A DNA stretch of 64,000 nucleotides from Streptomyces longispororuber (GTDB lineage Bacteria > Actinomycetota > Actinomycetes > Streptomycetales > Streptomycetaceae). The translations under genes were made by a program, and so were the position numbers. The stretch lies in assembly GCF_014656095.1 (NCBI RefSeq), contig NZ_BNBT01000020.1:1-64000 (forward strand), in the 5' to 3' direction. Below, piece by piece: positions 43,860-45,869 of the stretch. Each line of letters starts with the position of its first letter. Within the stretch, counting starts at the first letter, position 1. Under the pieces are notes generated by a model. The model made no database searches. It saw only the letters and a list, made by a program, of their open reading frames with translations, and was not told the DNA's origin.

Positions 43860-44135
43860 GGTTCCGTCCTGGGCGTGGTGGGGTGTCCGGGGGTGCCGCG
43901 GTGCTGGTCCGCCGGCGGCGGTACCGAGTCCACCAGGGGCGCCGCGCCCCGGTCTGGCAGCTACGCGACGGCATGGTCGGGCCGGAGGCACGCCACCCGT
44001 GCGAGGTCCGACGCGCGCCGACGACGAGCACCCCGGGGGCTGTGGGCCGCCGCCCGCTGACGCGGGGCCGCGGGTGCGGGAGGGCCGCCCGGAAAACGCC
44101 GGGCCCCCGCGTGGGGCGGCTGTTAGCATCGCCGC

Positions 44136-44189
44136 ATGATCACGTTCGAGTGCCGCCGCGCCATGATGCCCCGTCGACGGGGCTGCTGA
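44136..44189 (+). CDS. 17-residue leader peptide with tandem Met codons (attenuator of the Met-tRNA synthetase gene)
   Basis: The reading frame encodes MITFECRRAMMPRRRGC and stops at 44187-44189. The two adjacent Met codons (44163-44168) end exactly where the first stem of a hairpin begins. A TAGCAT hexamer (44124-44129) ends seven bases before the ATG, so transcription may start at or next to the A of the start codon. The leader could then be translated from a leaderless mRNA; no ribosome binding site is visible. Coding status is inferred from its match to attenuation logic. Confidence 0.6.
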   Translation: MITFECRRAMMPRRRGC

Positions 44190-44230
44190 CACCGGACGTT
44201 CATGTTTCCGAGGCCCCGAGTCGGGGCCTC
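44163..44230 (+). promoter_or_regulatory. ribosome-mediated transcription attenuator of the Met-tRNA synthetase gene
   Basis: Segments 1 and 2 form GCCCCG-TCGA-CGGGGC (44168-44183). Segments 3 and 4 form a terminator stem GAGGCCCCG/CGGGGCCTC (44210-44218, 44222-44230), followed by GTTCCGT. Segment 2 (CGGGGC at 44178-44183, extended by CGA before it) can pair instead with segment 3 (GCCCCG at 44213-44218, extended by TCG after a two-base bulge), which would break the terminator. A ribosome stalled at the tandem Met codons would cover segment 1 and favour that antiterminator. This is trp-like logic responding to low charged Met-tRNA. Confidence 0.6.
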
Positions 44231-44279
44231 GTTCCGTACGCAGCGGTTCCGGAGCCCCGCCTCACTCCTGGAGGTTCCG

Positions 44280-45869
44280 ATGACCCCACGCCGTACGTAC
44301 GTCACGACGACGATCCCCTACGTCAACGCCCGCCCGCACCTGGGCTTCGCCCTCGAACTCGTGCAGGCCGACGTGCTCGCCCGCCACCGGCGCCAGCGGG
44401 GCGACGAGGTGCGCCTGCTGAGCGGGACGGACGACAACTCACTGAAGAACGTCCTGGCCGCCGAGGCGCGGAACGTGCCGGTGGCGGAGTTCGTCGACCG
44501 CAACGCGCGGGCCTTCGCGGCGCTCGGCACCCCGCTCGCCCTGTCCCTCGACGACTTCATCCGCACCAGCGCCGACCCGCGCCACCGCGTCGGCGTGGAG
44601 TGGCTGTGGCGCCGGTGCGCGGCTGCCGGGGACCTGTACCGCAAGCACTACGAAGGCCTGTACTGCGTCGGCTGCGAGCAGTTCCTCACCCCCGCCGAAC
44701 TCGTCGCCGGCCGCTGCGCCGAGCACGGCACCGCGCCGCAGCCCGTCGCGGAGGAGAACTGGTTCTTCCGGCTTTCCCGGTACGCGGACCGGCTGTACGA
44801 GCTGATCTCGTCGGGCGCGCTGCGCGTCGAACCGGCCGCGCGCCGCAACGAGGTGCTCGCCCTCGTCGCGGGCGGCCTGCACGACTTCTCCGTGTCCCGC
44901 TCGCACACCCGGGCCCGCGGCTGGGGCATCCCCGTCCCAGACGACCCCGGCCAGGTCGTGTACGTGTGGTGGGACGCCCTCGGCAACTACGTCACCAGCC
45001 TCGGCCTCGGCACCGACGACCCCGCCTACGGCCGCTGGTGGGAGGGGAGCACCCGCCGCTGTCACGTCGTCGGCAAGGGCGTCGTCCGCTTCCACGCCGT
45101 GTACTGGCCCGCCATGCTCCTGTCGGCGGGGCTGCCGCTGCCCACGGACGTCCTCGTCCACGACTACCTCACCGTCGACGGCCGCAAGATCAGCAAGTCC
45201 GGCGGGGCGACCGTCGACCCGGTGGAGCTGGTCGCCGCGTACGGCACGGACCCGGTGCGCTGGTGGCTGCTGCGGGACGTGCCGCGGGTCGGTGACGCGG
45301 ACTTCACGCGGGAGCGGCTCGTCGCGCGGGCCGACGCCGACTTCGCCGGAGGGCTCGGGAACCTCGTCAACCGGGTCGTGACGATGGCCCACCGGTTCCG
45401 GGACGGCCGGCTGCGGCGTGCCGAACCGGCGGCCGGGGGCGGGGGGCGACCCTCTGTCGAGGCCGCAACCGTGGTGGGGACCGAGCGCCTCGCCGCTGCC
45501 TGCCACCGCGTCCGGGGCGACGTCGACGCGGCTCTGGAGGACTTCGACTTCCGCCGGGCCACGGCCGCGGTGTGGCGCGTCGTGGAGGAGGCCAACCGCT
45601 GTATCGACGTGACGCGCCCCTGGGAGCTGGCCAAGGCCGAGCGGGCGGGTGACCCCCGGGCGGGTGCCCGTCTCGACGCGGTCCTCACCGCCCTGGTCGA
45701 CGCGTGCCGGGTACTCGCCGAGGAACTGGGTCCGTTCGTGCCGGAGTCCGCCGCCAGGATCGCCGCGCAGTGCGCCGGGACCGACGAGATCGACGGGGCC
45801 GACGGGGCCGACGGACGGCTCCCGGCGGCACGGCCGCTGTTCGCGCGGCTCGGCGACGCGGCGGGGTGA
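44280..45869 (+). CDS. metG: methionyl-tRNA synthetase (class I)
   Basis: The 529-residue protein has the class I signatures: PHLGF near residues 19-23 (HIGH motif) and KISKS at 303-307 (KMSKS motif). Also present are RKHYEGLYCVGCEQFL with one Cys-type zinc knuckle, VYVWWDALGNYVT, and a C-terminal helical anticodon domain (NRCIDVTRPWELAK). It charges tRNA-Met in the cytosol. GGAGG precedes the ATG. It lacks a C-terminal tRNA-binding domain. It may be the second MetRS copy that some streptomycetes carry. An attenuator-like leader lies upstream. Confidence 0.9.
   Translation: MTPRRTYVTTTIPYVNARPHLGFALELVQADVLARHRRQRGDEVRLLSGTDDNSLKNVLAAEARNVPVAEFVDRNARAFAALGTPLALSLDDFIRTSADPRHRVGVEWLWRRCAAAGDLYRKHYEGLYCVGCEQFLTPAELVAGRCAEHGTAPQPVAEENWFFRLSRYADRLYELISSGALRVEPAARRNEVLALVAGGLHDFSVSRSHTRARGWGIPVPDDPGQVVYVWWDALGNYVTSLGLGTDDPAYGRWWEGSTRRCHVVGKGVVRFHAVYWPAMLLSAGLPLPTDVLVHDYLTVDGRKISKSGGATVDPVELVAAYGTDPVRWWLLRDVPRVGDADFTRERLVARADADFAGGLGNLVNRVVTMAHRFRDGRLRRAEPAAGGGGRPSVEAATVVGTERLAAACHRVRGDVDAALEDFDFRRATAAVWRVVEEANRCIDVTRPWELAKAERAGDPRAGARLDAVLTALVDACRVLAEELGPFVPESAARIAAQCAGTDEIDGADGADGRLPAARPLFARLGDAAG

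Follow-up and report, generated by a model that had tools for sequence, protein, structure and literature searches.

A putative trp-type attenuator with tandem Met codons upstream of an accessory methionyl-tRNA synthetase gene in Streptomyces longispororuber and its relatives

The gene of an accessory methionyl-tRNA synthetase (MetRS) in Streptomyces longispororuber is preceded by an element that, as judged from conservation and modelled base pairing, most probably (probability about 0.85) acts as a trp-type, ribosome-mediated attenuator that senses charged elongator Met-tRNA and controls the accessory enzyme. The window, i.e. the whole stretch of 64,000 nt that was analysed, comprises positions 1-64,000 of NZ_BNBT01000020.1, and the element is located at 44124-44282. 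Its parts and the adjoining gene are listed in the order of the sequence.

44124-44129, + strand: TAGCAT, the -10 box of a promoter presumed to give a leaderless transcript (sequence; TAnnnT is kept in relatives)
44136-44189, + strand: leader ORF MITFECRRAMMPRRRGC with its stop codon (a uORF with at least one Met at the same place is found in 75/81 upstream regions)
44163-44168, + strand: tandem Met control codons (MM in 62/81 regions, shuffle mean 0.76)
44168-44173, + strand: segment 1, GCCCCG, partner of segment 2 (arm permutation, z 6.0)
44178-44183, + strand: segment 2, CGGGGC, partner of segment 1 or 3 (base-pair probabilities)
44187-44189, + strand: leader stop codon TGA (sequence)
44209-44218, + strand: segment 3, CGAGGCCCCG (leader alignment and window sequence)
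44222-44231, + strand: segment 4, CGGGGCCTCG; 3:4 is a terminator-like hairpin of 10 pairs
44250-44259, + strand: segment 5, CGGAGCCCCG, kept across the alignment of 51 leaders, of unsure role
44270-44274, + strand: Shine-Dalgarno (SD) sequence GGAGG of metG (sequence)
44280-45869, + strand: accessory methionyl-tRNA synthetase, 529 aa, motif GTDDNSLKN (TIGR00398 and sequence comparison)

Much of this layout had been proposed by a sequence-only reading of the window and was borne out. The leader of 17 codons with adjacent Met codons in front of a MetRS gene is found at 44136-44189, far above chance expectation. The Met codons (44163-44168) meet the first stem at 44168, where segment 1 begins. 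Both stems are perfect, 3:4 comprising ten pairs, one more than the nine given before, with AGT as the loop between segments 3 and 4. TAGCAT precedes the leader ATG at a distance of seven, with six bases in between, and the metG ATG at 44280 is located 90 bases past the leader stop.

The encoded protein reaches 386.2 bits with the metG model TIGR00398, over the cut-off of 336.35. Among PDB sequences, it is matched best by a MetRS chain of entry 5xet, the MetRS of Mycobacterium tuberculosis. A second MetRS, 40% identical to that of the window, is encoded on another contig of the same genome; a -10-like TAGGAT is found upstream of its start, and the 300 nt upstream of it contain no MM uORF. The window gene is therefore regarded as the accessory copy. 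Genes in its vicinity include those of an MFS transporter, an aldo/keto reductase, an HD-domain protein and an ASCH-domain protein. Since no neighbor within 3 kb is generally common to the 80 relatives described below, no link to a biosynthetic cluster is seen within that distance. Clusters with shared neighbors occur within single genera or close kin, and one aldo/keto reductase group extends over two genera. PADLOC matched no family.

To collect relatives, one genome per species was scanned, and the best 80 of at least 542 matches together with the window yielded 81 upstream regions of 260 nt. An ATG- or GTG-initiated uORF of 8-40 aa with MM is present in 62/81 of them, whereas 50 dinucleotide shuffles of the same regions contain 0.76 on average and never more than 3. 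The second most common uORF doublet is Arg-Arg, with 48. Among the 19 regions without MM, 13 hold a single Met at the same place of the uORF, as judged by eye (L017, L026, L039, L046, L061, L063, L065-L068, L071, L078 and L083). Exceptions without any leader are six of the 81, namely L038, L041 and L080 (Pseudonocardiaceae) and L075, L081 and L082 (Thermomicrobiota). The MM codons singled out by the sequence-only reading are thus conserved across relatives (62/81, and a single Met in another 13), and so is the position of the stem, which in 68/75 leaders starts 3-8 nt downstream of the first Met-site base. Leader types largely follow the MetRS tree: three leader classes, to which 51 main-type rows do not belong and in a tree that does not contain the rhizobial copies, require 4 changes as compared with a mean of 15.6 for shuffled labels, none of 200 shuffles being as low.

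The promoter pattern is conserved as well. TAnnnT is located 12-13 nt upstream of the leader start in 70/75 leaders, a count slightly inflated by the choice of the uORF start among in-frame starts, as compared with 28/5703 ATG or GTG triplets in the upstream flanks of the relatives. Because this spacing is kept, leaderless initiation, already assumed for the window on account of its -10 box, is likely a trait of the leader family. A scan of the window for promoter and terminator consensus sequences returned no match. In the 70 leaders with TAnnnT, the stretch some 33 to 29 bases upstream of the -10 box is rich in A (64% A at -30), and a G is located two bases before the box in 80%. This stretch and the G suggest an extended -10 promoter with an upstream element.

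For covariation of the stems, a check that the sequence-only reading had asked for, the outcome is divided. Column covariation in the 26-leader core alignment (26/75 leaders) does not exceed that of shuffles, as there is little variation in the stems, and no compensatory support is therefore claimed from these 26 rows. The 51-row alignment (51/75 leaders) yielded stem 3:4 only; for 2/8 of its pairs, a single sequence has both partners altered. In an alignment-free permutation of arms among 65/75 leaders (42-64 distinct pairs per test, relatedness not controlled), by contrast, both 1:2 and 3:4 are supported. Arms 1 and 2, which were cut at fixed distances from the Met codons, match better within than across leaders (z 6.0, reached in 0/2000 permutations), and z is 12.2 for the 3:4 arms, which were fitted. 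The 2:3 arms have no co-variation of their own (z -2.3), and the control pairings 1:4, 3:5 and 2:5 yield z -1.0, 0.6 and -1.7, respectively. Compared with its own shuffles, all 20 of them are beaten by stem 1:2 alone in 23/75 leaders and by 3:4 in 55/75.

The minimum-energy fold of the whole window leader contains 3:4. The plain 1:2 hairpin, the other structure that had been proposed, is absent from it, and the 5' part of the leader pairs with 44190-44203. This fold is more stable than shuffled sequences (z -2.31 and -2.69 in two runs, with 1/200 shuffles as stable in each). The switch was modelled for 63/75 leaders by base-pair probabilities in the nascent RNA up to the 3:4 loop, assuming that the ribosome covers 29 nt and that its footprint extends to 12 nt past the first base of the codon in the A site. 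Leaders with variant layouts or poorly assigned arms were left out (L051, L053, L056, L058, L060, L061, L062, L064, L069, L072, L074 and L077). When the first Met codon occupies the A site, the probability of the 2:3 pairing, P(2:3), exceeds 0.5 in 62/63 leaders, the exception being L070, and with the second Met codon in 58/63. The same holds for only 2/63 leaders without a ribosome and for 1/63 with a ribosome at the stop codon. In the window, P(2:3) is 0.00 without a ribosome, 0.99 and 0.83 at the first and second Met codon, 0.00 at the stop codon and 0.46 with the ribosome further upstream. A ribosome whose edge is three bases before the Met codons yields P(2:3) >0.5 in 24/63 leaders, so that in the model the switch can to some extent also be triggered from a position other than the Met codons. 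When segment 4 is included, 3:4 reaches at least 0.85 at equilibrium in 19/20 leaders computed, even with a stalled ribosome, and the model therefore needs co-transcriptional timing.

A search of plasmid-encoded proteins located the gene with its MM leader on linear plasmids of a Streptomyces and an Embleya. The same search identified nine Rhizobiaceae plasmids with copies of 46-50% identity, seven of them full length; further plasmid matches at 33-39% identity are other MetRS, and L133 (Sphingomonas, 38% identical) was left out of the analysis. All 7/7 full-length rhizobial copies have three consecutive Met codons in their leader (MNRSLANATMMMPRS and relatives); six of the leaders are distinct, L124 being the same as L132. 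In a switch model with looser segment bounds than for the actinobacterial leaders, P(2:3) amounts to 0.00-0.24 in the free RNA, 0.65-0.99 with a ribosome decoding the first Met codon and 0.00-0.32 at the stop codon, i.e. 7/7 leaders switch. Five or more T follow a CCGCC/GGCGG hairpin in 5/7 of these copies. Two further proposals of the sequence-only reading are thereby reproduced in silico: segment 2 can pair with segment 3 instead of segment 1 (62/63 leaders stalled at the first Met codon), and stalling at the Met codons is predicted to favor the antiterminator (62/63 actinobacterial and 7/7 rhizobial leaders). On a plasmid of Rhizobium sp. T1473, one of the two truncated matches, a decayed rhizobial metG (L131), was observed, in which the match begins at residue 88 and the preceding stretch is not open.

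In the proposed mechanism, transcription would start at or adjacent to the leader AUG, as the -10 box indicates, and a ribosome would initiate at once on this leaderless AUG. With ample Met-tRNA, the ribosome would reach the stop codon and cover segments 1 and 2; alternatively, it would leave, and segment 2 would be held by segment 1 or by the 5' part of the leader. With segment 2 occupied in either way, 3:4 would form and, as is presumed for the window, transcription would end. When elongator Met-tRNA is scarce, the ribosome would stall on the Met codons, cover segment 1 and leave segment 2 free, as simulated in silico. According to the same simulations, 2:3 could then pair before segment 4 is made, and the polymerase would continue into metG. 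The product would be a spare MetRS with an altered inhibitor pocket, most likely made at times when the housekeeping MetRS is inhibited or overloaded. A point against this mechanism is that translation of the leader itself depends on fMet-tRNA for its start, so that the sensor should fail under severe starvation.

The output of the sensor could also be of another kind. In the window, the tail behind 3:4 (TTCCGTACGC) is without a U-run, and a terminator scan called none at 3:4; across 64 leaders, the ten bases past the hairpin contain 34% T, compared with 17% in leaders overall. A translational output of the same sensor, with little or no termination and with the leader fold, segment 5 and the SD region gating the ribosome site of metG, would agree with the uncalled terminator but is rather unlikely. 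The SD region is on average 43% unpaired without a ribosome (63 leaders), which would suit such a gate, and the conserved segment 5 (CGGAGCCCC) upstream of the SD may pair with the SD region or with segment 4. Within leaders, its weak tie to the SD reaches z 3.0 (5/2000 permutations reach it) and the 4:5 pairing z 2.0, but relatedness is not controlled in these permutation tests. Further points against translational gating are that SD accessibility shifts by more than 0.1 between the free and the stalled state in only 3/20 leaders computed and that a U-run terminator is found in 5/7 rhizobial copies.

Termination at the actinobacterial 3:4 that is Rho-dependent or results from uncoupled transcription, the leader acting by keeping ribosomes on the RNA and not through 2:3, is held to be unlikely. 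While it would account for a window without U-run, a family tail that is merely T-enriched and the absence of independent 2:3 covariation, it is at odds with the placement of the stem right behind the Met codons (68/75), with the in silico switch at these codons and with the orthodox terminators of 5/7 rhizobial copies. It is highly improbable that the leader ORF encodes a conserved small protein or is a promoter-proximal remnant without function in regulation. The last residues, which are kept in many Streptomyces copies (PRRRGC and similar), would speak for it, but PRRRGC is the translation of the 1:2 hairpin, and peptides end variably past the Met codons, immediately in MMPR and MMAP and later in MMPRRRGC, whereas the Met codons and the stem are constant.

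The distribution of the attenuator was assessed with a leader model (R1) built on 26 rows including the window; its genome searches used stricter filters and give lower bounds. In 150 Streptomyces genomes, 16 have a match with E <=0.01, four of them below 1e-15 and the others above 6e-4. The same four genomes, S. longispororuber included, hold a MetRS that is at least 74% identical to that of the window. Four of 150 is a lower bound because the MetRS search found any MetRS in only 76/150 genomes. Among 296 genomes of the class, eight contain matches; besides the one of S. longispororuber, L116, L117, L118 and L120 precede metG. The matches L119, L121 and L122 look like chance and were discarded as leaders. 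R1 yielded no second target gene in the 150 Streptomyces and 296 class genomes (again lower bounds). In the genomes of 48 relatives, 3 of which are without leader, two or more MetRS copies are found in 41/48 and one in 7/48. The latter are two Crossiella, three Frankia, Actinorugispora and a Pseudonocardiales metagenome bin that is possibly incomplete. The element would therefore control a spare enzyme or, in a few lineages, what is seemingly the sole one.

A member of the same MetRS family from Thermomicrobiales (L075) has a T-box match (RF00230) upstream of its gene at L075:2700-2957, with 77.4 bits and E 2.8e-17, under the gathering score of 93. The window leader has no match to this T-box family, and an Rfam search at gathering score of the window and 15 loci returned nothing. 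A permissive Rfam search had a weak miRNA match to the window leader as its sole outcome, which was rejected.

In S. aureus MetRS, Asp51, Lys56 and Ile57 are among the residues lining an auxiliary pocket entered by inhibitors, according to the accessible part of PMC9071491. Counted from Asp51 in S. aureus numbering, this pocket has Asn57 in 80/80 relatives, Asn53 in 79/80, and at position 54 Ser in 60 and Ala in 20 of 80. The housekeeping MetRS of the S. longispororuber genome reads DEHGQKI at this motif. Position 57 is not fixed among ordinary MetRS, since DEHGLKV is found in the mycobacterial chain. In S. aureus, MetRS mutants resistant to REP8839 reportedly include G54S and I57N, and positions 54 and 57 of the accessory MetRS presumably correspond to the sites of these resistance changes. 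An auxiliary, drug-insensitive enzyme is a known plan, as exemplified by trpRS1 and indolmycin in the excerpts of PMC9437257 and PMC4787780. The altered pocket and the trpRS1-like plan suggest, by analogy, inducible resistance. More specifically, the unit may be a mobile, self-contained resistance cassette of Met-tRNA attenuator and pocket-altered MetRS, present in two phyla, partly plasmid-borne and induced by poisoning of the housekeeping MetRS; this proposal is tentative and, in our estimate, somewhat doubtful. If it holds, the spread of the cassette would imply that soil harbors an undiscovered natural antibiotic directed at MetRS, and the cassette would have taken the place of the housekeeping enzyme altogether in Frankia and Crossiella. 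If the accessory MetRS is drug-insensitive, the leader could be used directly to detect MetRS inhibitors and might point the way to natural ones not yet known.

The closest known system is trpRS1 of Streptomyces, reportedly an auxiliary drug-insensitive aminoacyl-tRNA synthetase (aaRS) under ribosome-mediated attenuation (Vecchione and Sello 2010). The likeness consists in an auxiliary aaRS under this type of attenuation in Streptomyces and may, by analogy, extend to drug insensitivity of the MetRS. The systems differ in that tryptophan and indolmycin are involved there, compared with methionine and an unknown inhibitor or none here, and in that the present one is found in Rhizobiaceae, too. 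Leader peptides on leuS, trpS, alaS, thrS and metNIQ, some without a clear U-run, are on record for S. lividans (excerpts of PMC8079986), and attenuators were predicted on trpS and leuS of some Streptomyces in PMC1262725, whose accessible part reports no conserved RNA structures upstream of the methionine operons of the genomes used there. Like the present leaders, those listed in these excerpts have cognate codons and are mostly said to be leaderless, and several are without a clear U-run. In contrast, none of those listed there is located on a MetRS gene, and the metNIQ leader of S. lividans, as far as the excerpt goes, has scattered Met codons and precedes a transporter operon.

T-box leaders of aaRS genes likewise report the charging of the cognate tRNA, and one is found on the Thermomicrobiales member of the MetRS family, but they bind the tRNA directly and do so without a leader peptide. 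A replacement of the T-box by a leader peptide on a paralogous aaRS gene is described for hisS paralogues of bacilli, there for histidine and in Firmicutes (accessible part of PMC2965389). The present MetRS family is a further example of an aaRS family that is under a T-box in one lineage and under a leader peptide in others. In the open-licence literature searched, which leaves most subscription papers outside, no attenuator on a MetRS gene was found described, and within this scope the putative Met-sensing leader on MetRS in two phyla is a newly described variation on known aaRS attenuators. Methionine is an awkward case for a leader peptide, as initiation depends on fMet-tRNA while the reporting is done by elongator Met-tRNA. 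With a conserved attenuator of this kind, the sharing of methionine between the two tRNAs under stress would become testable. The met T-box of S. aureus, according to the available excerpt of PMC3771891, prefers the initiator tRNA.

Two further groups of sequences were observed beside the leader family. In two Streptomyces, L105 (genome G069) and L106 (G023) represent a further accessory MetRS subfamily that is 51-53% identical to the window protein; no Met leader of either was seen by eye, and their motifs read GSDENSLKN and GTDENSLKN, respectively. Variant Met-rich leaders are located upstream of metG in L051, L053, L056, L058, L060, L061, L064, L069, L072 and L077. No other MetRS was seen in 7/10 of the genomes with these variants, and several of the ten have their Met codons within a CCGG-type stem.
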